A stretch of 64,000 nucleotides of DNA from NCBI GenBank assembly GCA_027013095.1, contig JALUYI010000035.1, positions 62,001-126,000 of the forward strand. Direction: 5' to 3'. Positions within the stretch are counted from its first letter, which is position 1. Every line of letters starts with the position of its first letter. The notes below the pieces were generated by a model, which was given only the letters and a program-made list of their open reading frames with translations, searched no databases and had not been told where the DNA came from. This stretch comes from Paracoccaceae bacterium (GTDB taxonomy: Bacteria; Pseudomonadota; Alphaproteobacteria; Rhodobacterales; Rhodobacteraceae). A program made the translations under genes and the position numbers. Shown here piece after piece: positions 32,654 through 52,430 of the stretch.

Positions 32654-34843
32654 TTAACGCAGCCTCCACGAGTTGAGAGTCACCGTGATCGAGGATGCGC
32701 TCATCGCCAGCGCCGCAAGCAGGGGGGTGGCCAGCCCCAGCAGGGCAACAGGTATGGCGATGGCGTTGTAAATCACGGCGAGGCCAAAATTCTCCTTGAC
32801 CCGTTGCCGCGCCGAGCGGGCGGTTTTCACACATTCCGCGATTACCGAGAAATCCTGCCCGAGAATCACGATATCAGAAGCGACCCGCGCAACGTCAAGC
32901 GCCGACGCTGGCGAGATCGAGACATGGGCTGCGGTAAGGGCGGCAGTGTCGTTCAGACCGTCACCTACCATCAGGACCTTGTGACCCTGCTCGCCCAGAC
33001 TGGTGATCTTGCCGAGTTTTTCATCCGGCAGGACATTGGCGATGACCTGATCGAGGCCAAGGTCGCCACCAACCGCTTCAGCGGCCATTTGCGTGTCACC
33101 TGTCAGTATCACGGTTTTCAGGCCCATTGCCGAGAGCTGCGGAATAAGATCGGCAGCGCCGGGACGCAGGGCATCGGCAAAGGCGAACATGATTGGCTCG
33201 CCGTCCCCGCGCCGAAGATAGGTTGCGGTGGTTTCCCCCGCGCTGGCGCCGACCCATGATGCACGCCCCAGACGGACCTCAACGCCTCTCAAATACGCCC
33301 GGACGCCATATCCGGGAACCTCTTTGACGGCATCAAGCCCGGGGAGGTCGACCGCCAGACCCCGGTCCTGTGCGGCGGTCAACAGCGCCGTCGCCAGAGG
33401 GTGGGCGCTGTGCCGCGCAAGACTGGCGGCGAGGGCAAGGTCACGCGCGTCAATGGTGTCCGCTGACACCAGTCGCGGCGTGCCTTGGGTCAGCGTGCCG
33501 GTCTTGTCAAACAGGACCGTATCGACCTCGGCTAAACGCTCCAGCGCGGTTCCGTTTTTCAGCAACACACCCTGACGATACAAACGTCCGCTGGCTGCTG
33601 TTGTGACCGCGGGGACAGCCAGCCCCAGCGCACAGGGGCAGGTGATGATCAGGACCGATATGGCGATATTGATGGACAGCCGCAGATCGCCGGTCAGCAG
33701 AAACCAGCCGACAAAGGCGGCGGCAGCCAGCAGGTGGACCCCCGGTGCGTAGATGGCGGCGGCCCGGTCGGCCAGCGAGGTATATCTGTTGCGTGAGCTT
33801 TCTGCCAGCGCCACCAGACTGGCCATTTTCTGCAGGGTTGAATCCTTTGCCTGGGCGGTGACTCGCATGGTCAGGCTGCCCGTCAGATTGATCTCGCCGG
33901 CGTTGATCGGTTGGTTCGGGCCGACATAGGCCGGTCGGCTTTCGCCGGTCAGAAAGGCGCGGTCGATCTCGCTTTCGCCGCTCAGAACCACCCCGTCCAC
34001 AGGCACCCGGATCCCGGGTTTTATGATGACGATATCGCCCTTGTTCAGGGCTCCCACATCGGTGATCACTTCTTGCCCGTTCACCAGTTTCAGGGCGCGA
34101 GGAACCTCAAGAGCGGTCAGTTCCTGTGCCGCCGAGCGGGCGCTGGCACGGGTGCGGTAATCCAGATAGCGCCCGGCAAGCAGAAAGAAGGTCAGGGACA
34201 AGGCCGCATCGAAATAGGCGTCACGTCCCCCGGCCATGGTTTCAAACAGCGACATGCCTGCGGCCAGTGTGATTGCCAGCGAGATCGGCACGTCCATATT
34301 CAACCGCCGCACACGCAGGGCAGACAGCGCGTTCCTGAAAAAGGGTTGGGCGGCAAACCCCACCGCGGGAAGGGCGACAAGGGCCGAGAACCAGTGCAGA
34401 AGGTTTCGCGTCTCCCCCTCGGCTCCGGCCCAGACTGCCACCGACAGCAGCATGACATTCATGGCGGCAAAACCGGCAACCGCCAGACGCATCAAGAGGT
34501 CGCGCCCTCCGGTATCAACGCGCGCTTCTGCCAGCAGGGCGGGTTCCAACTCATGCGCTTCATAGCCGATGCCCGAGAGGACCTCAACCAGATCGGCAGG
34601 GCTGATCGATTCATCGGCTTTGACACTGACCCGTTTCAGCGACAGGTTGACCCGCGCCTCCGAGACGCCCTCGACCTTTTCCAGCCCGCGCTCAACCGCC
34701 GAGATGCAACCTGCGCAATGGACCGTGGGAACCGACAGCATGATATTGCCGCCATCAGGGGCGGCCTCGGGTGCCGCAACCTCGGCGGGGCTGACGGCAC
34801 AGGCTGGGCAGGCCGCCGGGCGTGGGAGGACCTCGGGGGCCAT
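32654..34843 (-). CDS. ccoI: Copper-translocating P1B-type ATPase CcoI
   Basis: This 729-residue membrane pump supplies copper for the cbb3 oxidase. An N-terminal CPAC (Cys12, Cys15) comes before a heavy-metal-associated domain with HCAGC (Cys43, Cys46). About eight helices follow; helix 6 carries ITCPCALGLAVP. The phosphorylation site is DKTGTLTQG, the nucleotide domain has HSAHPLA, and the hinge has GDGLNDTAAL. The additional N-terminal CxxC may be a second metal site. It is the third gene of ccoGHIS and follows ccoH by 2 bp. Confidence 0.96.
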   Translation of the reverse strand: MAPEVLPRPAACPACAVSPAEVAAPEAAPDGGNIMLSVPTVHCAGCISAVERGLEKVEGVSEARVNLSLKRVSVKADESISPADLVEVLSGIGYEAHELEPALLAEARVDTGGRDLLMRLAVAGFAAMNVMLLSVAVWAGAEGETRNLLHWFSALVALPAVGFAAQPFFRNALSALRVRRLNMDVPISLAITLAAGMSLFETMAGGRDAYFDAALSLTFFLLAGRYLDYRTRASARSAAQELTALEVPRALKLVNGQEVITDVGALNKGDIVIIKPGIRVPVDGVVLSGESEIDRAFLTGESRPAYVGPNQPINAGEINLTGSLTMRVTAQAKDSTLQKMASLVALAESSRNRYTSLADRAAAIYAPGVHLLAAAAFVGWFLLTGDLRLSINIAISVLIITCPCALGLAVPAVTTAASGRLYRQGVLLKNGTALERLAEVDTVLFDKTGTLTQGTPRLVSADTIDARDLALAASLARHSAHPLATALLTAAQDRGLAVDLPGLDAVKEVPGYGVRAYLRGVEVRLGRASWVGASAGETTATYLRRGDGEPIMFAFADALRPGAADLIPQLSAMGLKTVILTGDTQMAAEAVGGDLGLDQVIANVLPDEKLGKITSLGEQGHKVLMVGDGLNDTAALTAAHVSISPASALDVARVASDIVILGQDFSVIAECVKTARSARQRVKENFGLAVIYNAIAIPVALLGLATPLLAALAMSASSITVTLNSWRLR

Positions 34844-34845
34844 GC

Positions 34846-35304
34846 TCAGCGAGTCACATAGATTGGCAGGCGCTGGTGGAATTTTTCACCATCGGGCGCG
34901 GTTGCGGTAAAACGGACCTCCCATTTTCCCGGCGCCAGACTGAGCGGAACGCGGTACGGGCGCGCCCCTTGTGCAAAGGTCAGCTTTTTATCGGCCCAGT
35001 CATAGGCGGCGCGCCCGACCGTGGCCTCAAGCAGCGTGATCCGGGCGGGGGCCCCCGTCTTGTCGCGAATTTGCAAGGTCAGGACCTTGCCGTCAAACGA
35101 CGTCTTGGCGTGCCAGCCAAGGTTGATCTGCGCCTCGCGGTCGCGGTTGAAATTCTGGCTGGCGACATAGGTGTTGTGCACCTCAAGCCCTGGGAACGTT
35201 CCCAGCGCCGCATAGACCAGCGACAAGTTTGCGCCAATAATGACCAGAAAGAACGAGACAACCACCAACAGGAATTTCCGGCCGGTAAATTTACGCACAG
35301 CCAT
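34846..35304 (-). CDS. ccoH: FixH family protein, cbb3 oxidase assembly
   Basis: This 152-residue protein with one N-terminal helix (about residues 9-30) and a periplasmic beta-rich domain matches CcoH/FixH. Conserved features are the NFNRD block (SQNFNRDREAQINLGWHAKTSF) and the end APDGEKFHQRLPIYV. It helps assemble or stabilise the cbb3 complex. It follows ccoG by 1 bp. Confidence 0.92.
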   Translation of the reverse strand: MAVRKFTGRKFLLVVVSFFLVIIGANLSLVYAALGTFPGLEVHNTYVASQNFNRDREAQINLGWHAKTSFDGKVLTLQIRDKTGAPARITLLEATVGRAAYDWADKKLTFAQGARPYRVPLSLAPGKWEVRFTATAPDGEKFHQRLPIYVTR

Positions 35305-35305
35305 G

Positions 35306-36736
35306 TCAGCGTCCTTTCCCGTTAAAGACGGTGTCCTTGTAGACCCGGTCCTTTGTTTCCATATCTTCGACCCAAATGCGGATGTCTGTCAAACCCGCCT
35401 TAGCCGCCGGTGAATTGCGAAATGCCGTTACGAACAGCTTGTGCGAGCCAGTCTCGTCGGCAGGAACCGTAACCATGCCGTCCTTTTGTCCCTGAACGGT
35501 GGTGCCGAAAATACCTTTTGGCGTGACCGAGATCATGAACCGATGCGCCTGACCCTGCTTGTTGTGGATCCGCAAGTTGAAGGTGTTTCGGATCGAGCCG
35601 TCCGAAAGCGTCACATAGACCGGGTTGCGTACCGGCGAGACGTTGAAATCGATGTTCGAGCGCAGGAACAGGGCGGCGATCAGGAATGCCCCGACCCCGG
35701 CCCAGAGAACGGTATAGATGATCGTGCGCAGCCGCAGGATGTGTTTCCAGACAGGTTTGGGGGGTTTTCCCGAGCGCTCGCGTGCTTCGTCGGTCAGGGC
35801 CATGTAATCGATCAGGCCGCGGGGCTTGCCGACCTTGGCCATCATGCCGTCGCAGGCGTCGATGCACAATGCGCAGGTGATGCAGGCCAGTTGCTGCCCG
35901 TCGCGGATATCGATGCCCATCGGGCAGACATTGACGCAAGCATTACAGTCGATGCAATCGCCCAACTTGTCGGCATCCGCGGATTTGCGATGCTTGCCGC
36001 GCGGCTCGCCCCGCCAGGCGCGGTAGGCGACGGTGATCGTGTCCTCGTCCATCATCGCCGCCTGAATTCGCGGCCACGGGCACATGTAGATGCAGATTTG
36101 CTCGCGGGCAAACCCGCCGAACAGAAAGGTCGTTCCGGTCAGCGACAGGATGAACACATAGGCGATATAAGGCGCGCTGCCATGCACCAGCTGTTGCAAA
36201 AGGGTGGGGGCGTCGGCGAAATAGAACACCCAAGCCCCGCCGGTTGCGACGCTGATCAGAAGCCAGACAAACCATTTGGTCAGGCGCAGGCGAATCTTGT
36301 GGGCGTCCCACTTGGCCTTGTAAAGGCGGACGCGGGCATTGCGGTCGCCCTCGATCCAGCGCTCGACAGTAACAAAAAGGTCGGTCCATACGGTTTGCGG
36401 ACAGGCATATCCACACCAGACCCGCCCTAGCGCCGAGGTGAACAGAAACAGACCAAGCCCCGCCATGATCAGAAGGCCCGCGACAAAGTAGAATTCCTGT
36501 GGCCAGATCTCGATCCAGAAAAAGAAGAATCGACGTGTAGAGAGATCGATCAGCACCGCCTGATCGGGCAGGTTTGGCCCCCGGTCCCAGCGGATCCACG
36601 GAGTGATATAATAGATCCCAAGGGTGACGATCATCAGGCTCCATTTCAGGCTGCGGAAAAAACCGTAAACCCGGCGCGGAAAGATCGGTTCCTGTGCGGC
36701 ATAAAGTTTCGGGGGCTCTTCGGCAGAGTTTGTCAT
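35306..36736 (-). CDS. ccoG: Cytochrome c oxidase accessory protein CcoG (polyferredoxin)
   Basis: This 476-residue membrane iron-sulfur protein matches CcoG/RdxA/FixG, which is reported to reduce copper for cbb3 assembly. It has several N-terminal helices, CGYACPQTVW, CMCPWPR-like YMCPWPRIQ, and two ferredoxin clusters: CIDCNACVNVCPMGID and CITCALCIDACDG. The C-terminal periplasmic Ig-like domain (from about residue 370) is typical. It is the first gene of ccoGHIS, separated from ccoP by a terminator, so it has its own promoter; no FNR box is seen before it. Confidence 0.95.
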   Translation of the reverse strand: MTNSAEEPPKLYAAQEPIFPRRVYGFFRSLKWSLMIVTLGIYYITPWIRWDRGPNLPDQAVLIDLSTRRFFFFWIEIWPQEFYFVAGLLIMAGLGLFLFTSALGRVWCGYACPQTVWTDLFVTVERWIEGDRNARVRLYKAKWDAHKIRLRLTKWFVWLLISVATGGAWVFYFADAPTLLQQLVHGSAPYIAYVFILSLTGTTFLFGGFAREQICIYMCPWPRIQAAMMDEDTITVAYRAWRGEPRGKHRKSADADKLGDCIDCNACVNVCPMGIDIRDGQQLACITCALCIDACDGMMAKVGKPRGLIDYMALTDEARERSGKPPKPVWKHILRLRTIIYTVLWAGVGAFLIAALFLRSNIDFNVSPVRNPVYVTLSDGSIRNTFNLRIHNKQGQAHRFMISVTPKGIFGTTVQGQKDGMVTVPADETGSHKLFVTAFRNSPAAKAGLTDIRIWVEDMETKDRVYKDTVFNGKGR

Positions 36737-36860
36737 CCTGAGAAATCCTTGGGCCTGTTCGCGACTGGTTTCGCGATTTGTCGGCTGGGTTGGTGTTGTG
36801 CTACTCTAGAAACTGGTGCGGCCCGGCGCTTGGGAAAAGCGCGTAAAGTCGTCGCAGGTC

Positions 36861-36944
36861 ATAAAAGACACCGGCTCCCCTACGGTGTGAACAGGACGGG
36901 GGAGCCGGTGCCGGATCCTCCGGGCGCAAGAGGGAGCGCCCGGA
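36861..36944 (-). terminator. Double hairpin terminating ccoNOQP
   Basis: After the ccoP stop, minus-strand transcription meets a 9-bp stem (36944-36936 with 36927-36919), then a 12-bp perfect stem (CACCGGCTCCCC 36869-36880 with its complement 36899-36910). This is followed by TCTTTTAT. It separates ccoNOQP from ccoGHIS. Confidence 0.75.
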
Positions 36945-36954
36945 GAACATGTGT

Positions 36955-37818
36955 TTATTCACCACCGCCTTGCTGGTGAATATAGGTGGCGACCTGACGA
37001 ATTTGCGATTCGCTCAGACGGCCGGACCATGCGGGCATGACGCCCTTGCGGCCGTAGGTGACCGTCTTGGTGATGGTCTTGACGTCGCCGCCATAAAGCC
37101 AGATCGCGTCGGTCAGGTTCGGGGCACCGAAATCACGCCCGCCTTTGGCATCTTCGCCGTGACAGGCCGCGCAATTGTCGGCAAACACCGTGGCCCCGGC
37201 CTTGGCGGCCGCCTTGTCGGCCTGACCGCCCGAGATCGACAGGACATATTGAACGACATTGGCAATCTCTGCCTTGGACAGCTGGTCGCCCCACGCTGGC
37301 ATTTCGGAATCGCGCGTGTCCGGGTCGGCGGCATAGCGAATGCCGTGGCTGACCGTCTGGTGGATGTCCTGAATGGTTCCGCCCCAGAGCCAGTCGTCGT
37401 CGATCAGGCTGGGAAAGCCCTTGGCCCCGTTGGCCCCGGCGCCGTGACATTGGGCGCACCATGTCCGGAACACCGCCGCGCCGCCGTTCATGGCATAGCT
37501 GTTCAGCTCGGGGTCTTTCTCGATGGCGTTGAGATCGGCCGAGGCCAGACGCTTGTCCACAGCGGCATTGGCGTCGTTATATTTCTTGATCTCCTTGGCG
37601 ACATCCGCGCGTGAACTGTAATGCCCAAGGCCAGCCCAGGCCCCCTTTGTCGAGATCGGCCACGAGGGATACCAGATGAACAGGTAGATCGCAAAGGCGA
37701 TGCAGGCATAGAACGTCCACAGCCACCAGCGCGGCAACGGGTTGTCCAGTTCTTCGATCCCGTCCCAGCTGTGACCCGTGGTTGGCACCTCGGGGTGTTT
37801 GTCGTCTTTCTTGCTCAT
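36955..37818 (-). CDS. ccoP: cbb3-type cytochrome c oxidase subunit III, di-haem c
   Basis: This 287-residue subunit feeds electrons to CcoO/CcoN. One N-terminal helix (about residues 33-50) anchors two cytochrome c domains with CAQCH (Cys121, Cys124, His125) and CAACH (Cys216, Cys219, His220). Methionine ligands are in EMPAWG and VMPAWSG. The N terminus has the usual HSWDGIEELDNPLPRWW signature. It overlaps ccoQ by 4 bp. Confidence 0.97.
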   Translation of the reverse strand: MSKKDDKHPEVPTTGHSWDGIEELDNPLPRWWLWTFYACIAFAIYLFIWYPSWPISTKGAWAGLGHYSSRADVAKEIKKYNDANAAVDKRLASADLNAIEKDPELNSYAMNGGAAVFRTWCAQCHGAGANGAKGFPSLIDDDWLWGGTIQDIHQTVSHGIRYAADPDTRDSEMPAWGDQLSKAEIANVVQYVLSISGGQADKAAAKAGATVFADNCAACHGEDAKGGRDFGAPNLTDAIWLYGGDVKTITKTVTYGRKGVMPAWSGRLSESQIRQVATYIHQQGGGE

Positions 37819-38039
37819 GTCCGGGTCTCCTTCCGGGGGGTCGGGTTTGTCTCGTCGATGGTTTTCAGATCATCCTCCAGATTGTCACCGCGCAGCAGAA
37901 CGATGTTGGCGGCTTCTGCGTATTTCTTCTTGGCTCCGGGACGGAGATAGGTTCTGACCAGCACCAGAAGAAAGACAAAGAGCATCAGAAACATGCCCCA
38001 ACTTTCGGCAAATTCCCGCAGGATATTATACTTGTCCAT
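37815..38039 (-). CDS. ccoQ: cbb3-type cytochrome c oxidase subunit CcoQ
   Basis: This 74-residue one-helix protein (MFLMLFVFLLVLVRTYLRPGAKKKYAEAANI) matches CcoQ, a small stabilising subunit. Position between ccoO and ccoP is diagnostic. The C terminus is longer and more acidic than in shorter CcoQ forms. It overlaps ccoP by 4 bp and starts 14 bp after ccoO. Confidence 0.92.
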   Translation of the reverse strand: MDKYNILREFAESWGMFLMLFVFLLVLVRTYLRPGAKKKYAEAANIVLLRGDNLEDDLKTIDETNPTPRKETRT

Positions 38040-38053
38040 GTTCAGCCCTCCCC

Positions 38054-38782
38054 TCAGCGGCTTGCGTCTGGAATGAAGGTCGAGAAATCAACCATCGTAC
38101 CAAGAACTTGCAAATAGGCAATCAGGGCGTCCATCTCGGTCAGCTGTGGCTGGCCGTCAAAGTTGCGCACGTTGACCTTGTCACCATAGCGTTTCAGGAG
38201 CCCGGATGTGTCAGCATCGGGGTTGGCCTGGGCCTTGAAATCGGCCAGTGCGTTGGCGATCTGCTCATCCGTGTAAGGGACACCCACCTCGCGGTTGGTC
38301 TTCATCACGTCGGCGATATATTTGCCATCGATGACGTCATGCAGCATGAAGCCATAGGTCGGCATCACGCTCTCGGGGACAACCGAGCGCGGGTCGGTCA
38401 GGTGGTGGACGTGCCACTCATCCGAGTAGCGTCCTCCAACCCGGGCCAGATCAGGGCCGGTGCGTTCCGAGCCCCACTGGAACGGGTGGTCATACATCGA
38501 CTCTGCGGCCAGCGAATACGGCCCATAGCGTTCGACCTCGTCGCGCAACGGGCGGATCATCTGGCTGTGGCAGAGATAGCACCCCTCGCGCACGTAGATG
38601 TTCCTCCCGGCCAGCTCCAGCGGGGTATAAGGGCGCATGCCCTTCACCTTTTCGATGGTGTTCTGGATGTAAAAGAGGGGAACGATCTCGACCAGACCGC
38701 CAACCGAAACGACCAGCAGGCTGAGAATCAGCAGAACCGTCGCGTTGGTTTCGATGAACTTGTGTTTTGATAGTAACGACAT
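38054..38782 (-). CDS. ccoO: cbb3-type cytochrome c oxidase subunit II, mono-haem c
   Basis: This 242-residue subunit has an N-terminal helix (about residues 15-36), a haem c site CYLCH (Cys68, Cys71, His72), the motif [20 protein letters not shown] and the axial methionine region MPTYGFM. It takes electrons from CcoP to CcoN. It starts 15 bp after ccoN. Confidence 0.97.
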
Positions 38783-38797
38783 GTTTCTCTGCCTCTC

Positions 38798-40399
38798 TTA
38801 TTCAGCCGGAACCGCAGAGGCGGTCAGGTCGGATTTGGCCGGTGCACTGGTGACGGTCTTCCAGAGGTTGACCACCATGATCACCCCGCCAGTGAGGTAA
38901 AGAACCCCGCCCAGTCCGCGGATGATATACATCGGGTGCATCGCTGCGACCGTGTCGGCAAACGAGTTCACCAGAAAGCCTTGCGCATCGACTTCGCGCC
39001 ACATCAGGCCCTGGGTGATCCCCGCAACCCACATCGAGCTGGCGTAAAGAACGATACCAATGGTGGCCAGCCAGAAGTGCCACGAGACCATGGACAGGCT
39101 GTAAAGCCGCTCTTTCTTCCACAGGCGCGGGGTCAGGAAGTAAAGTGCGCCAAAGGTGATCATGCCGTTCCAGCCCAGAGCGCCGGAATGCACGTGGCCG
39201 ATGGTCCAGTTGGTGTAGTGGCTGAGGCTGTTGACAGCGCGGATCGACATCACCGGACCTTCAAAGGTGGACATGCCATAAAAGGCCACCGAGATCACCA
39301 TCATCCGCAGGATCGGATCGGTCCTCAGCTTGTCCCACGCCCCCGAAAGGGTCATCAGTCCGTTGATCATACCACCCCAGGAGGGCATCCACAGCATGAT
39401 GGAAAAGGCCATGCCCAGATATTGTGCCCAGTCGGGCAGGGCGGTGTAGTGCAGGTGGTGCGGGCCGGCCCAGATGTAAAGAAAGATCAGCGCCCAGAAG
39501 TGGATGATCGACAGTTTATAGCTGTAGACCGGGCGTTCGGCCTGCTTGGGCACAAAGTAATACATCATCCCAAGGAACCCGGCCGTCAGAAAGAACCCGA
39601 CCGCGTTGTGGCCATACCACCACTGGGTCATCGCATCCTGCACCCCGGCAAACAGCTGCACGGATTTGGACCCAAAGATCGATACCGGCACAGCGAGGTT
39701 GTTGATGACGTGCAGCATCGCGATCGTCACGATAAAGCTGAGGTAGAACCAGTTGGCCACGTAGATGTGTTTTTCCTTGCGTTTCAGGATGGTGCCAAAG
39801 AACACCGCCAGATAGGCGACCCAGACGATGGTCAGCCAGATATCCACATACCATTCCGGCTCGGCATATTCCTTGGACTGGGTGACCCCCATCAGATAGC
39901 CGGTCGCGGCCAGCACGATGAACAGCTGATAGCCCCAGAACACGAACCACGCCATGTTGCCCCCCCAGAGCCGCGCTGCACTGGTGCGCTGCACGACATA
40001 AAACGAGGTGGCGATCAGGGCGTTGCCGCCAAAGGCAAAAATGACCGCTGATGTGTGCAGCGGCCGCAGGCGCCCAAAGTTGCCGTAACCTTGGAGGAAC
40101 TCGAAATTGAGGTGCGGAAAGGCCAGTTGAAAGGCAATGAAGGTCCCGGCCAGAAAGCCGACAATTCCCCAGAACCCGGTGGCGATCACCCCGGCGCGAA
40201 TGACCCCGTCCATATAGCCGGTCGGTGCCGGTTTTGGTGGATCGTTGGTGTGCCGCAGCGTGTAGATGAACAGGCCGCCGGCTATTATGACGATCAGGAT
40301 CGCATGTAGCTCAAAGGCAAAATCATGTGCAAAATTGGCTGCCATCGCCGCAAACAGCGTGATGACCGCCAACACAATCAGTTTCAAGTAGTCCAGCAT
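38798..40399 (-). CDS. ccoN: cbb3-type cytochrome c oxidase subunit I
   Basis: This 533-residue catalytic subunit reduces O2 and pumps protons with high oxygen affinity. About twelve helices are visible. Haem and CuB histidines are recognisable in [59 protein letters not shown] and [21 protein letters not shown]. The conserved tyrosine of the cbb3 active site lies in the Tyr-rich block near [19 protein letters not shown]. It is the first gene of ccoNOQP, with an FNR-type site about 100 bp upstream. Confidence 0.97.
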
Positions 40400-40492
40400 C
40401 GAGTGTCCCTTCGTTTTTTTGCGCGCACCTGTCCTGGTCGCGATCTGGTCCCGACCATAGACGACAACTGGTCAAACCGGCGCGAAGATTCT

Positions 40493-40506
40493 TTGATCTA
40501 TGTCAA
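40493..40506. promoter_or_regulatory. FNR-type box in the ccoN/usp divergent region
   Basis: TTGATCTATGTCAA matches the FNR/FnrL consensus TTGAT-N4-ATCAA with one mismatch. Its centre is 100 bp before the ccoN start and 114 bp before the stress-protein start. The linked fnrL gene makes FnrL the likely binder, activating ccoNOQP at low oxygen. Confidence 0.75.
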
Positions 40507-40541
40507 AAAAGTCTGAACAGAGACTGTGCGATATTGTCCGA

Positions 40542-40555
40542 TTGATTCATGTCAT
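40542..40555. promoter_or_regulatory. Second, weaker FNR-type box before the stress-protein gene
   Basis: TTGATTCATGTCAT fits TTGAT-N4-ATCAA with two mismatches. An AT run containing TATATA (40573-40580) about 30 bp downstream could be the -10 of the usp promoter, placing this box near -40, the class II activator position. Confidence 0.5.
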
Positions 40556-40613
40556 TGAGGCGAAGACTTCGCTATATATACCATGATCGGACCCACAAGA
40601 AAGGAGTCTTTGA

Positions 40614-41450
40614 ATGGCCTATAAAACGATAATGAGTGTGTGGGACGCCCGCGAGCAGAGCCACGCCGCCGTCGATATGGCCGCGCGTATGGTGGCGGCC
40701 GAAGACGGGCACCTGACGGTCCTGTGCCTTGGTGTGGACCGAATTCAACCGGGGCTCTATTACGCCGGAGCAGCGCCATCGGTGATGGATGACGGGATGC
40801 AGATGGCCCGCGATGACGCCAAGAAATTCGAAACCGAGGCCCGGGCGATGCTGGACGCAGCCAAAATCAACTGGTCCTGCCACCCGATGGTGGCCCAGAT
40901 CAGCGGGATTTCCTATGCGGTCGGCTCGGTCGCACGCTACAGCGACCTTGTGGTTTTGCCATCGCCCTACGCCGGTGGGGCAGGGGAAGACGCGTCGCTG
41001 GTTCTGGAAAGCGTGATGTTTGACGGGCACGCGCCGGTTCTGGTTTGTCCTTCGACAGGTTGCGAGTTGCCCGGCAAGCGCATCGTCGTGGCCTGGAACC
41101 AGAGCGCCGAAGCTCTCGCCGCGATTCGGGCGGCGATGCCGTTTCTGGTCGCGGCCGAAGCCGTCGATATCGCCATCGTCGATCCCGGTCGCCATGACAA
41201 GCACGAGAGCGACCCGGGGGTGCAATTGTCAAAGATGCTGGCCCGGCACGGAGCCAATGTGACCGTGACGGTTCTGGCCCGGACGATGCCCAAGGTGGTC
41301 GAGGTGCTCGAACGGCACGTGACCGATTTTGGCGCCGACCTGCTGGTCATGGGGGCCTATGGTCATTCGCGGTTTCGCGAGTCCATTCTGGGTGGCGCAA
41401 CCCGCGACATGCTGCAAACGGCAACCTTCCCGGTCTTCATGGCACATTGA
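40614..41450 (+). CDS. Universal stress protein, two UspA domains
   Basis: This 278-residue cytoplasmic protein has two Usp domains in tandem. The first starts YKTIMSVWDAREQSHAAVDMAARM; the second (about from residue 155) starts KRIVVAWNQSAEALAAIRAAMPFL. The second ends with the ATP-binding signature VMGAYGHSRFRESILGGATRDML. The first domain's equivalent loop is degenerate, so one nucleotide site per chain is likely. An AAAGGAG precedes ATG 40614. Usp genes often sit beside cco/fnr loci and respond to low oxygen, which fits the FNR-type boxes here. Confidence 0.92.
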   Translation: MAYKTIMSVWDAREQSHAAVDMAARMVAAEDGHLTVLCLGVDRIQPGLYYAGAAPSVMDDGMQMARDDAKKFETEARAMLDAAKINWSCHPMVAQISGISYAVGSVARYSDLVVLPSPYAGGAGEDASLVLESVMFDGHAPVLVCPSTGCELPGKRIVVAWNQSAEALAAIRAAMPFLVAAEAVDIAIVDPGRHDKHESDPGVQLSKMLARHGANVTVTVLARTMPKVVEVLERHVTDFGADLLVMGAYGHSRFRESILGGATRDMLQTATFPVFMAH

Positions 41451-41497
41451 ACGCGCCAAAGCCGGGGGCGGGATCGGAAAAAACCTTGCGCGGCCGC

Positions 41498-42244
41498 TCA
41501 GGTCAGCATTCCGCCGTCGGAATCGTCTCCGGTCTCGTTCATTAGGCGGGCGAAATCAGGGACGGTGACGTGGCGTTTCCCCTCCAGCTCGATGATGCCC
41601 TCCCGTTTCAGCGCCGAGATTTGTCGGCTGACCGTTTCCAGCGTGACGCCAAGGTAATCGGCCATCGCCTCGCGCGAAAGCGGCAGGTCAAAGCGCACAT
41701 TGCTGCTGGCCGAGGCCAATCGCAGATGGGCGTCCCGCCGCGCCAGGATTGTCAGCAGGCTGGCGATCTTTTCCCGCGCCGTCTTGCGCCCGAGCAGCAA
41801 CATCCATTCCCGCGCTGCGTCCAGCTCATCCAAGGTCATTTCCAGCAGCCGCGACGAGATCGAGGCCGAGCGGCCCAGCAGTTCTTCAAACGGGGCCTTG
41901 GCAAATTTGCACAGCGTCACCTCGTTTGCCGCAACTACGTCAAAGGGGGCGTAATCCCGCCCCGGGCGGCCAACGAAATCGCTGGGCAACAGCAAGCCGA
42001 CCATCTGCCGCCGGCCGTCCTCCATCGTTTGCGACAGGGCCGCCACCCCGGTGACTACCGAGCCGACGAACTGCACCTTGTCTCCGGCCCAGACGATCGT
42101 TTGCCCCGGTGCGTAGGTCTTGTAGGATTTCATCTGGTCCAACAGCGCCAATTCGTCCTCTTCACAGCGCGCGCAGACCGCCCGATACCGTATCGGACAA
42201 CTCTCGCAGGAGGATTCGGCTAACAAATTGGCCTGGACGCTCAT
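41498..42244 (-). CDS. fnrL: Crp/Fnr family oxygen-sensing regulator FnrL
   Basis: This 248-residue transcription factor senses O2 through a 4Fe-4S cluster. Cluster ligand candidates are Cys13, Cys16, Cys24, Cys27 and Cys112, the arrangement of FnrL rather than of Crp. The cyclic-nucleotide-like domain spans about 30-150. The C-terminal helix-turn-helix carries the FNR-type recognition sequence ETVSR in REAMADYLGVTLETVSRQIS, so it should bind TTGAT-N4-ATCAA. AAGGATAATA precedes the ATG. A perfect FNR box lies only 21 bp from the start codon, suggesting autoregulation. Confidence 0.95.
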   Translation of the reverse strand: MSVQANLLAESSCESCPIRYRAVCARCEEDELALLDQMKSYKTYAPGQTIVWAGDKVQFVGSVVTGVAALSQTMEDGRRQMVGLLLPSDFVGRPGRDYAPFDVVAANEVTLCKFAKAPFEELLGRSASISSRLLEMTLDELDAAREWMLLLGRKTAREKIASLLTILARRDAHLRLASASSNVRFDLPLSREAMADYLGVTLETVSRQISALKREGIIELEGKRHVTVPDFARLMNETGDDSDGGMLT

Positions 42245-42258
42245 TATTATCCTTGGAT

Positions 42259-42272
42259 TTGATCTTGATCAA
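42259..42272. promoter_or_regulatory. Perfect FNR box between fnrL and hemN
   Basis: TTGATCTTGATCAA is an exact TTGAT-N4-ATCAA palindrome. Its centre (42265.5) is 41.5 bp before the hemN ATG and 21 bp before the fnrL ATG. It suits activation of hemN and repression of fnrL by FnrL. Confidence 0.88.
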
Positions 42273-42295
42273 GGTAAGGTCGGAACATACACCCC

Positions 42296-42301
42296 TAGAT
42301 A
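42296..42301 (+). promoter_or_regulatory. Predicted -10 element of hemN
   Basis: TAGATA ends 5 bases before the hemN ATG. If used as -10, transcription begins at or next to the start codon, and the FNR box is at -41.5. No ribosome site lies between, so a leaderless message is predicted. Confidence 0.5.
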
Positions 42302-42306
42302 CGACA

Positions 42307-43662
42307 ATGACAGACAATAGACAACTCGCCAACCTCGGTTTGTTTGAATCGAAGGTTCCCAGATATACGAGCTATCCGACTGCTCCGCACTTTACCACCG
42401 GGGTGCAGCGGCCCGAGTTCGAACGCTGGCTGCGTGCCGTCAAACCGGGCGCATCCATATCATTATACGTCCACATTCCGTTCTGCCGGCGCCTGTGCTG
42501 GTTCTGCGCCTGTCGGACCCAAGGCGTGCGCACGGACGACCCTGTGCATTCCTATCTGGGGACGCTGATGGAGGATATCGGGCAGGTCGGGCTGGCTCTG
42601 CCCGAGGGTGTGACCCTTGCGCGCCTCCATTGGGGCGGCGGGACACCGACCATCCTTTCGCCAAAGATGATCGAAATGCTGGCCGGGCGAATCAAGCAGT
42701 TCATGCCGTTTGCCGACGGGGCCGAATTTTCGGTCGAGGTGGACCCCAGCGAGGTTGACGAGGCGCGCATGGATGCGCTTGCGGCCGCCGGCATGAACCG
42801 GGCAAGCATCGGCATTCAGGATTTCAACCCGGAAATTCAAAAGACGATCGGCCGCGAGCAGAGCTTTGAACTGACCGCAGCGACGGCGGAAAAGCTGCGG
42901 GCACGGGGGATTCACAGCCTGAATACCGATATTCTTTACGGCTTGCCGGATCAGGACAGGGCCAGCATCGAGGACACGACGCGCAAGCTGATCAGCCTCG
43001 GGCCGGACCGCGTCGCGCTTTATGGCTATGCCCATGTTCCGTGGATGGCCAAGCGGCAAACGATGATTCCCGAGGACCGGTTGCCCAATTCGATTTCGCG
43101 CCTTGACCTTTACGACGCGGCGCGCAAATTATTTCTTAATGCGGGCTATAGCGGGATCGGGATCGACCATTTTGCCAAGATCGGCGACGGTCTGGATGTT
43201 GCCGCGCGTGAAGGTCGGCTGCGGCGGAATTTTCAGGGCTACACCGATGACCGCTGTGACACGCTGATCGGCCTCGGGGCGTCGGCGATTTCACGGTTTC
43301 CTCAGGGTTATGTGCAAAATGTCAGCGCCACCGCAGGCTATCTTGCGCAGGTGCGCGACGGCAAGTTTGCAGCCGCGCGCGGCCATGCCTTTGCCGGGGA
43401 TGACTTGTTGCGGGCCCGTGTGATCGAAGAACTGATGTGCGCGTTCCGCGTGGATCTTGACAAGATTGAGGCCGAGTTTGACGAGGTCGAGGTCGATCTG
43501 CGGCTGGAACTGGCGCGCGTTCATCAAAAGTTTTCGCCGTTCACGCGCCAGACCAACGCGGTGCTGGAAATCACGCCACAGGGCCAGCCCCTGACCCGGA
43601 TGATCGCCCGCGAGTTTGACGCCTACAGCATGGATGCCGCCGGCCACAGCCTGGCCATATAG
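42307..43662 (+). CDS. hemN: Oxygen-independent coproporphyrinogen III oxidase
   Basis: This 451-residue radical-SAM enzyme decarboxylates coproporphyrinogen III in haem and bacteriochlorophyll synthesis without O2. The 4Fe-4S motif is CxxxCxxC with an extra Cys (Cys60, Cys64, Cys67, Cys69) in HIPFCRRLCWFCACR, as in true HemN. The following blocks LHWGGGTPTIL, SVEVDPSEVD, GIQDFNPEIQKTIGREQ and IGIDHFAK also fit. The C-terminal HemN domain is present. The frame is open upstream to 42109, but ATG 42307 gives the normal HemN start. Regulation by the FNR box upstream is very likely. Confidence 0.95.
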   Translation: MTDNRQLANLGLFESKVPRYTSYPTAPHFTTGVQRPEFERWLRAVKPGASISLYVHIPFCRRLCWFCACRTQGVRTDDPVHSYLGTLMEDIGQVGLALPEGVTLARLHWGGGTPTILSPKMIEMLAGRIKQFMPFADGAEFSVEVDPSEVDEARMDALAAAGMNRASIGIQDFNPEIQKTIGREQSFELTAATAEKLRARGIHSLNTDILYGLPDQDRASIEDTTRKLISLGPDRVALYGYAHVPWMAKRQTMIPEDRLPNSISRLDLYDAARKLFLNAGYSGIGIDHFAKIGDGLDVAAREGRLRRNFQGYTDDRCDTLIGLGASAISRFPQGYVQNVSATAGYLAQVRDGKFAAARGHAFAGDDLLRARVIEELMCAFRVDLDKIEAEFDEVEVDLRLELARVHQKFSPFTRQTNAVLEITPQGQPLTRMIAREFDAYSMDAAGHSLAI

Positions 43663-50440: not shown

Positions 50441-50475
50441 AAAAGAAAACAGCCGCCCGTTGTGGGGCGGCTGTT
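50441..50475 (-). terminator. Terminator of the cytochrome c gene
   Basis: An 11-bp stem (AACAGCCGCCC 50448-50458 with GGGCGGCTGTT 50465-50475) closes on a six-base loop. On the minus strand it is followed by a T-rich tract (TTTCTTTT). It ends the cytochrome transcript before yejA. Confidence 0.8.
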
Positions 50476-50497: not shown

Positions 50498-51442
50498 TCA
50501 ATTCGAGAGCGACTTCAGATAGGCGATGATATTGACGCGATCCTTTTCTTTTTTCAGACCGCCAAAGCCCATCTTGGTTCCCGGGGCGAAATCCCGGGGC
50601 TTTTTCAGCCAGTCGCTGAGGCGCGCTTCGGTCCAGTTTCCGCCAAGGCCTTTCAGCGCGTTTGAATAGGAATAACCCGCTTCGCTGGCGACGGGGCGCC
50701 CGACCACGCCAAACAGCGACGGGCCGATCCCGTTCACCCCGGCAACCGTCTTGTGGCAGACCTTGCATTTCTTGAAGACCTTCTTGCCCTTGGCGGGGTC
50801 CCCTGCTGCGGCGACCTTGGGTGCGGGCGCCGGGGCCGGTGCTGCCGGTGCAGCCTTGGCAGGGGCCGGCGCCGCGGCTTTTGCCGGAGCGGCCGCCGGT
50901 GCTGCCGCTTTCTGGGCTCCGGCGGGTGCCAGTGTTCCCAGATAGGCAATCACGTTGGCCCGGTCCTTCAGTTTCTTCAGCCCGGCAAAGCCCATCTTGG
51001 TTCCCGGGGCGAAATCCCGCGGTTTTTTCAGCCATGTGCTGAGGCGCGCCACAGTCCATTTGCCGCCCACCCCTTTCAGGGCACCGGAATAGCTGAATTT
51101 GGGCTCGCTGGCCACGTCACGTCCGACCACGCCATAGAGTGACGGGCCGGTGGCGTTCACACCCGGCTCGATCTTGTGGCAGGCCTTGCATTTGGAAAAC
51201 ACCTTCTTGCCCTTTGCCGCGTCGCCGGCCGCCAGAATGTCGGCCTCGGATGGGGCAGTGGCCGCGGCTTTCTCTGCGGGTTGCGGGGCTTCAGCCGTTT
51301 CAATGACATACGCGGGTTTGGCCTCGCCCTCGTGTTTGGTCAGCCCATAGATGGAATCCGACGCCCAGTTGATGAGGAGGAAAACGAGCAGCGCCCCGGC
51401 TAGCGCCCCGCCATATTTTGTGAGAGTCGTGGTATTGAACAT
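50498..51442 (-). CDS. Membrane-anchored cytochrome c with two tandem class-I haem domains (c_y-like)
   Basis: This 314-residue protein has an N-terminal helix (about residues 10-27), a short linker, then two homologous cytochrome c domains at 73-171 and 214-312, joined by an Ala/Pro/Lys-rich linker (172-213). Haem sites are CKACH (Cys85, Cys88, His89) and CKVCH (Cys226, Cys229, His230); methionine ligands are Met150 and Met291 in GTKMGF. The domains are identical at 75 of 99 aligned positions. Rhodobacter cytochrome c_y (CycY/CycM) has the same anchor-linker plan but one haem. It probably carries electrons from bc1 to the cbb3 or aa3 oxidase. Confidence 0.9.
   Translation of the reverse strand: MFNTTTLTKYGGALAGALLVFLLINWASDSIYGLTKHEGEAKPAYVIETAEAPQPAEKAAATAPSEADILAAGDAAKGKKVFSKCKACHKIEPGVNATGPSLYGVVGRDVASEPKFSYSGALKGVGGKWTVARLSTWLKKPRDFAPGTKMGFAGLKKLKDRANVIAYLGTLAPAGAQKAAAPAAAPAKAAAPAPAKAAPAAPAPAPAPKVAAAGDPAKGKKVFKKCKVCHKTVAGVNGIGPSLFGVVGRPVASEAGYSYSNALKGLGGNWTEARLSDWLKKPRDFAPGTKMGFGGLKKEKDRVNIIAYLKSLSN
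50563..51019. repeat. Internal direct repeat within the two-haem cytochrome gene
   Basis: Bases 50563-50596 and 50986-51019 are identical over 34 positions. They lie in homologous places of the two haem domains (around the GTKMGF methionine). The surrounding sequence is also closely similar, indicating recent duplication or gene conversion. Confidence 0.85.
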
Positions 51443-51569
51443 GACTTTCCTATCCTGATGAGCGGATCAAACCGCGTGTCCCGAAAACTGCGCCTTTCTA
51501 AACGCTTCCCCTTGCCAGTTGCAAGGTGTAGAAGCCGCGACGAAACGCCCAGAGACGCAAGAGTTGCCA

Positions 51570-52430
51570 ATGAACGCACCGAACAAGAAAATTTCCTTTC
51601 AGGGTGAGCCGGGGGCCTATTCGCATCAGGCCTGCCATCAGGCGATGCCCGACCATCAGGCGGTGCCCTGCGCGACATTCGAAGACGCTATCGAGGCCTT
51701 GCGCACCGGCGCGACCGATCTGGCCATGTTGCCGGTGGAAAACTCGACCTACGGGCGGGTTGCGGACATTCACCACCTGTTGCCGGACTCGGGACTGCAC
51801 ATCGTTGGCGAGGCCTTCGTGCGCGTCCATATCAACCTGCTCGGTGTGCCCGGCGCGCGTCTTGAGGACGTGACCTCGGCGCTCAGCCACACCGTCCTGC
51901 TGGGCCAGTGCCGCGGATTTCTGGGCGAACACGGGATCCGGGCGGTGACCGGGGCGGATACGGCGGGCTCGGCCCGGCATGTGTCCGAGGCCAAGGACCC
52001 GACCCAAGGCGCCCTTGCCAGCGAACTGGCCGGCGAGATTTACGGCCTTGAGGTTCTGGCCCGCCATATCGAGGATTACCAGAACAACACGACCCGCTTT
52101 CTGATCATGTCGCGCGAAGCGGATCACACGCGCCGCGGCACTGATATGGTGACCAGTTTCGTGTTTCGTGTGCGCAATATTCCGGCTGCGCTCTACAAGG
52201 CCATGGGCGGCTTTGCCACCAACGGCGTCAACATGGTCAAACTGGAAAGTTATATGGTCGGAGGGTCCTTCACCGCCACCCAGTTCTATGCCGATATCGA
52301 GGGGCACCCGGACGATCCCGCGGTGCGTCTGGCCTTGGAGGAGCTGGAATTTTTCACCTCCTATATGAAAATCCTCGGCGTTTACCCCGCCGATAGTAAC
52401 CGTCGGGCGCTGGCCGCTCAGGCGGACTGA
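51570..52430 (+). CDS. pheA: Prephenate dehydratase
   Basis: This 286-residue single-function enzyme converts prephenate to phenylpyruvate for phenylalanine synthesis. The catalytic domain runs from FQGEPGAYSHQAC to the NTTRF motif (residues 173-177). It also contains LPVENSTYGRV. The C-terminal ACT domain (about 192-275; TSFVFRVRNIPAALYKAMGGFATNGVNMVKLESYMV) confers feedback inhibition by phenylalanine. No chorismate mutase part is present. It diverges from the cytochrome gene; its 3' end overlaps the convergent SRPBCC gene by 13 bp. Confidence 0.95.
   Translation: MNAPNKKISFQGEPGAYSHQACHQAMPDHQAVPCATFEDAIEALRTGATDLAMLPVENSTYGRVADIHHLLPDSGLHIVGEAFVRVHINLLGVPGARLEDVTSALSHTVLLGQCRGFLGEHGIRAVTGADTAGSARHVSEAKDPTQGALASELAGEIYGLEVLARHIEDYQNNTTRFLIMSREADHTRRGTDMVTSFVFRVRNIPAALYKAMGGFATNGVNMVKLESYMVGGSFTATQFYADIEGHPDDPAVRLALEELEFFTSYMKILGVYPADSNRRALAAQAD

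Follow-up and report, generated by a model that had tools for sequence, protein, structure and literature searches.

The window, which is the whole 64,000-nucleotide stretch of DNA analysed here, carries a gene for a membrane-anchored cytochrome with two haem heads on a single anchor. The protein is strongly supported, by comparison with its sequence relatives, as an ortholog of cytochrome c_y/CycM (c552), and among these relatives it is best read as one case of a recurrent modular variant. It probably serves as a tethered carrier between the bc1 complex and the oxidases, with two largely equivalent heads that provide more carriers per anchor. That two- and three-headed forms recur at a single locus is of more interest than the window case, which is itself a sound annotation and no great surprise.

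The open reading frame lies on the reverse strand and occupies exactly the interval to which a sequence-only reading of this DNA had assigned it. The features of the gene and its surroundings are collected in Table 1. Pfam Cytochrom_C matches two stretches of the protein. In an AlphaFold2 model built from 22 sequences (mean pLDDT 80, pTM 0.43), a helix at residues 4-32 is followed by a flexible stretch, a confident cytochrome c head, another flexible stretch and a second confident head. Values of pLDDT below 50 occur at residues 35-61, 178-193 and 195-200, all within the two linkers, and the low pTM fits heads that have no fixed position relative to each other. In the alignment, Met150 and Met291 fall in the ligand column of the c_y family. 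Each head thus has the features of a class I cytochrome c head, a CxxCH motif and a distal Met, and the predicted fold is complete. The two intact haem domains and the Ala/Pro linker between them, both proposed in the sequence-only reading, are therefore borne out. Just past the stop codon, the putative hairpin suggests where the c_y transcript may end; the scanned region contains five terminator-like sites against 2.2 (sd 1.2) in shuffled sequence, which is consensus evidence only.

Table 1. Features of the two-headed cytochrome c_y gene and of the neighbouring genes, in window coordinates
Feature	Position	Strand	Basis and remarks
Two-headed cytochrome c_y (CycM-type) gene	50498..51442	-	314 aa, ATG start; ORF call, Pfam, best PDB sequence match
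N-terminal transmembrane anchor, residues 4-32	51347..51433	-	AlphaFold2 helix, hydrophobic stretch, alignment with 21 relatives
Linker 1, residues 33-72	51227..51346	-	Low-confidence coil 35-61; short helix 66-72 leading into the head
Proximal haem head, residues 73-171	50930..51226	-	CKACH 85-89 (CxxCH codons 51176-51190), Met150
Linker 2, residues 172-213	50804..50929	-	42 aa, 81% Ala/Pro, four Lys, zero acidic residues
Distal haem head, residues 214-314	50501..50803	-	CKVCH 226-230, Met291
Putative terminator-like hairpin with T-rich tail	50448..50475	-	Just past the stop codon; 11 pairs, 8 GC
pheA (prephenate dehydratase-like; name assigned in this analysis)	51519..52430	+	Divergent neighbour marking the orthologous c_y locus; outside the mechanism
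cbb3 genes ccoN, ccoO, ccoP (names assigned in this analysis)	36955..40399	-	ORFs; COX1 match 38900-40198; two Cytochrom_C matches in the ccoP ORF

The assignment to cytochrome c_y, also made in the sequence-only reading, has strong support from homology, anchor, fold and gene order. The best PDB sequence match, covering residues 1-168 at E 1.7e-39, is 9fks_o ('Cytochrome c, class I'), followed by Paracoccus c552 (3m97, E 3.7e-30) and then R. capsulatus c_y (6xkw, E 1.6e-29). Judging from its identity to 3m97, 9fks_o is presumably the Paracoccus protein at full length, with c552 as its soluble part. Foldseek also ranks 3m97 first, with 51% identity across 107 columns. The best NCBIfam model, cytochrome c-550 CycA (NF043008), scores 149.5 bits and thus remains below its cut-off of 240. 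The membrane anchor and flexible linker that characterize c_y/CycM are present in the model and in the anchor alignment. By tblastn synteny, a divergent pheA adjoins 146 of the 148 family c_y loci among the matches listed, the window's included, the exceptions being L184 and L227. The typical c_y arrangement of one head per anchor is absent, the window protein having two; a single head is treated as non-defining because the number ranges from one to three among orthologs at this locus.

The two heads (residues 73-171 and 214-312) align without gaps and are identical at 75 of 99 positions, the very count given in the sequence-only reading, while the best of 2000 shuffles reaches 18. To call them nearly identical, as that reading did, is too strong: the nucleotide sequences are 75% identical, and third codon positions only 57%. 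The duplication is also visible in the DNA as two direct repeats in register, with a spacing of 423 nt, one of 154 nt at 80% identity and the other of 128 nt at 77%. The NG86 method gives a dN of 0.18 and a dS of 0.93 between the heads, and two further methods give dN values of 0.19 and 0.19 with dS values of 0.97 and 0.80. The resulting dN/dS of about 0.2, at a dS of about 0.9, indicates purifying selection during the divergence of the heads. The duplication is real, and it is not recent.

Of the 154 heads extracted, 128 were placed in a tree to assess their relationships. Both window heads group with the single heads of two congeners, G004 and G009 (support 99/96), and fall apart from the heads of every other multi-headed protein; their branch lengths are 0.22 and 0.24. 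An origin of head 2 in a different cytochrome, for example the soluble c2-like protein of contig C18, was rejected, as head 2 is nearest to head 1 and next nearest to the single heads from G004 and G009. Within this group, the best tree places head 2 with the G004 and G009 heads at a support of 39/15. AU tests, which bear on whether the duplication preceded or followed the split from these two species, reject neither the pairing of head 1 with head 2 (p 0.475) nor that of head 1 with the G004 and G009 heads (p 0.484). The nearest PheA proteins in the genus likewise come from G004 and G009 (82 and 81% identity). Residues 1-32, which include the anchor (window 51347-51442; compared with loci L003, L004, L006 and L007), have a different affinity, with 27 and 25 of 32 residues identical in G002 and G003 against 19 and 20 of 32 in G004 and G009. 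Given this difference from the heads and PheA, recombination may have taken place at the c_y locus or within the gene.

The survey of homologues for domain number, which the sequence-only reading had called for, covered 10 genomes of the same genus and 198 genomes of the family. The family loci came to 150 among the matches listed, of which L158 and L221 were left out as two-haem proteins of another kind. The remaining 148 c_y loci, in 148 genomes, comprise 138 single-headed, 7 two-headed and 3 three-headed proteins among the matches listed, window included. As for the other 50 of the 198 family genomes, 49 have no locus among the matches listed, one of which, G166, gave no match at all, and G017 has only a dropped row. 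Within the genus, the c_y loci of the eight other genomes that have one are all single-headed. The remaining congener, G008 (94% complete), has a c2-like match and no c_y match, which may reflect either loss of the tethered carrier or a gap. L158 and L221, together with L016, L096, L099, L106, L116, L117 and L123, were excluded from the c_y counts or trees; all nine are presumably Sox-type two-haem proteins.

Public genomes were scanned in the best 80 of 237 relatives, a set ranked by likeness to the window protein and hence biased. In these best 80 of 237, two-headed c_y occurs in Roseovarius (L071, L072), Cribrihabitans (L121) and strain EL129 (L064), as well as in metagenome-assembled genomes (MAGs) of Rhodobacteraceae (L052), Alphaproteobacteria (L053, L054) and Rhodospirillaceae (L066, L067), and a three-headed form occurs in Pelagibacterium lacus (L062). 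Besides the window protein, at least 15 two-headed proteins are pheA-linked (L024, L028, L052, L053, L054, L064, L066, L067, L071, L072, L121, L156, L160, L177 and L237). At least four three-headed proteins lie at the pheA locus, three in family genomes (L033, L214, L225) and the fourth being L062. In the Pelagibacterium protein, heads 2 and 3 are 93% identical, which points to a recent further duplication. Two other proteins with paired haem motifs were encountered. L114, from the MAG Plut_88856, is a two-headed cytochrome whose heads are 89% identical and whose signal-peptide-like start lies close to the first head; pheA was not found beside it, on a contig of only 4229 bases. In the window's own genome, a 299-aa ORF on contig C19 (L255) has two CxxCH motifs in a layout unlike that of c_y.

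Changes in head number were counted on a quick tree of the anchor and first head from 211 distinct pheA-linked loci (191 single, 16 double, 4 triple), from which 13 loci with no pheA or with a short start had been dropped. Parsimony requires 13 changes, at least six of them on well-supported branches; the figure of 13 is an estimate because 93 of the 208 forks in this tree are open. Head number thus seems to have changed several times among the relatives. The Met ligand is kept in all 234 aligned heads of the 211-locus set, among them all 43 that belong to multi-headed proteins; the second head of L028, which ends at a contig edge, was left out of this alignment.

The window heads are distinguished by their charge. 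The proximal head has a net charge of +13 and the distal head +12, while head charge has a median of 0 and a maximum of +10 at 208 measured single-headed loci (repeats of one gene retained) and ranges from -13 to +9 in the 12 of 19 other multi-headed proteins measured. The window heads are therefore more cationic than any measured. Their linker also differs from those of other multi-headed c_y, being short and composed of Ala, Pro and Lys, whereas 11 of the 12 other multi-headed proteins measured have inter-head linkers with a net acidic character (seven others lying outside the set). Within the genus, c_y heads and c2-like cytochromes vary together in charge from genome to genome (Spearman 0.93, 8 of 10 genomes); G003 is omitted because it has no c2-like match and G008 because it has no c_y, and two c2-like values were averaged in each of G001 and G002. 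This correlation may reflect docking of both carriers on the same partner surfaces or a general shift in protein charge. Linker 1 of the window protein is about 33-40 aa long. Work on R. capsulatus describes about 45 linker residues as proficient for respiration and 69 as necessary for fast transfer to the reaction centre (PMC7876108). Linker 1 is slightly below this respiratory length, though most single-headed relatives measured in the same way have linkers of similar length, and its shortness fits a non-phototroph. No match for a reaction centre, for the copper nitrite reductase NirK or for cytochrome cd1 was found in the window's own genome.

The same genome encodes candidate respiratory partners. 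Cytochrome c1 is encoded on the same contig as c_y, and there are two COX1 matches, one of them inside the cco cluster of the window. The cbb3 oxidase is a likely electron acceptor of c_y, and the second COX1 is probably of the aa3 type, judging by its score class. The cco cluster extends over window positions 32654-43662, where ccoN, ccoO, ccoP and ccoG are followed by ccoH- and ccoI-like genes beside fnr- and hemN-like genes (names assigned in this analysis). FNR-box-like sites occur in the cluster at 40493, 40542 and 42259. Unlike the cco cluster, the c_y gene has no FNR-like box and so gives no sign of co-regulation, which is counted against the preferred explanation. The genome further encodes a soluble c2-like cytochrome, and c_y may therefore not be the limiting carrier. 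Two correlates of head number were considered and rejected. Replacement of soluble c2 by multi-headed c_y is unsupported, since a c2-like match outside c_y is present in 8 of 10 multi-headed genomes searched, that of the window among them; the two lacking one are G165 (86% complete) and G131 (76% complete), and among single-headed genomes it is lacking in 1 of 19, G003 (83% complete). An association of head number with oxidase number is not supported either, as PF00115 match counts overlap (1-9 in multi-headed and 1-6 in single-headed genomes).

In the proposed mechanism, c_y would act as a single-span tethered carrier that is reduced by cytochrome c1 in the bc1 complex and passes the electrons on to the terminal oxidases, namely cbb3 and the second haem-copper oxidase, read as aa3-type. 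The haem head would have been duplicated in the lineage of the window species and its nearest single-headed congeners, and one anchor would now bear two largely equivalent one-electron heads, one after the other, each of them flexible and strongly cationic. Both heads are predicted to be loaded with haem, and both would exchange single electrons with bc1 and the oxidases. The gain would consist of more heads per anchor, with a higher local concentration and a wider distal reach, and would involve no new reaction. The sequence-only reading had left a choice between raised throughput and the bridging of two partners. For the window protein, throughput is favoured over bridging because the heads are alike in ligands, charge and branch length.

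The main alternative, which appears unlikely, is a division of labour in which the proximal head would serve transfer from bc1 to cbb3 or aa3, while the distal head, with its longer reach, would serve another partner. Such a role has a parallel in Neisseria, where the terminal haem domain of cytochrome c5 is described as supporting nitrite reduction (PMC2924362). The pattern of divergence is also suggestive: in 12 of the 15 two-headed pairs, including the window's, the single-headed norm is better matched by the proximal head than by the distal one, and the middle head is furthest from it in four of four three-headed proteins. The 15 pairs are, however, non-independent, and in L237, L052 and L053 it is the distal head that is closer. 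In the window protein, mean identity to the 191 single heads is 57.6% for the proximal head and 52.8% for the distal one, and the 24 of 99 positions that differ between them would be enough for different partners. Against this stand their identical ligands, similar charge and similar branch lengths, as well as the lack of a NirK or cytochrome cd1 match in the genome.

It is considerably less probable that the tandem duplication is neutral, with a second head merely tolerated and internal duplication eased by Ala/Pro linkers, without functional gain. A variant that comes and goes would be expected to show the patchy spread seen in the family, where 10 of 148 loci among the matches listed are multi-headed, and the 13 parsimony changes agree with it. 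A useless head would nevertheless be expected to decay, and the intact ligands (43 of 43 multi-headed heads keep Met) together with the low dN/dS at a dS of about 0.9 therefore count against neutrality. An assembly artefact duplicating one domain, which the sequence-only reading had named as grounds for giving up the two-headed protein, is ruled out for practical purposes by the 25% nucleotide difference between the copies and by the same-locus architecture in other genomes.

A carrier with two largely equivalent heads thus remains the preferred reading of the window protein. A broader proposal, advanced tentatively and with some doubt, is that heads have been repeatedly gained and lost on one tether at this locus (one, two or three), tuning both the number of electrons held by the bc1-oxidase supercomplex and the distance over which they are carried. 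Within a multi-headed c_y, electrons could also be relayed from head to head. Tethered cytochromes are simple shuttles that carry electrons among the respiratory complexes. The effect of cytochrome tethering and channelling on flux is discussed and disputed (PMC8361435). The natural one-, two- and three-headed c_y proteins of a single locus form a series in which head number, linker length and charge can be tested against flux.

No paper naming a multi-headed c_y was found in the open literature; most subscription journals lie outside that scope, which makes this weak evidence of absence. The c_y described in PMC7876108 is single-headed, and two- and three-headed forms may be undescribed, as far as these sources indicate. 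The R. capsulatus protein has a 30-residue helix, a 69-residue linker and one haem head of 100 residues (PMC7876108). The window protein resembles the R. capsulatus and Paracoccus c_y/CycM/c552 proteins in its N-terminal anchor, flexible linker and class I head with CxxCH and Met; it differs from R. capsulatus c_y in having two heads and a shorter first linker. With the other two- and three-headed alphaproteobacterial c_y proteins it has in common the pheA-linked locus, the anchor and the heads.

Cytochrome c5 of Neisseria belongs to a different cytochrome subfamily from c_y. This protein (CycB) contains two haem domains with an AlaSerPro-rich linker between them (PMC2924362). The likeness, compared at the level of architecture and by description, lies in the paired haem domains and the Ala-rich flexible linker. 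The differences lie in the lineage and in the terminal domain, which is tied to nitrite reduction in Neisseria, whereas the present genome has no match for the corresponding reductases. The tri-haem CcoP of Neisseria likewise carries an extra haem domain attached through an AlaSerPro linker, and this domain has been proposed to derive from c5 by recombination (PMC2924362). It resembles the window protein as a respiratory cytochrome that has gained a haem domain. However, the extra domain of CcoP sits on an oxidase subunit and is proposed to be c5-derived, while the heads of the window protein are most similar to each other.
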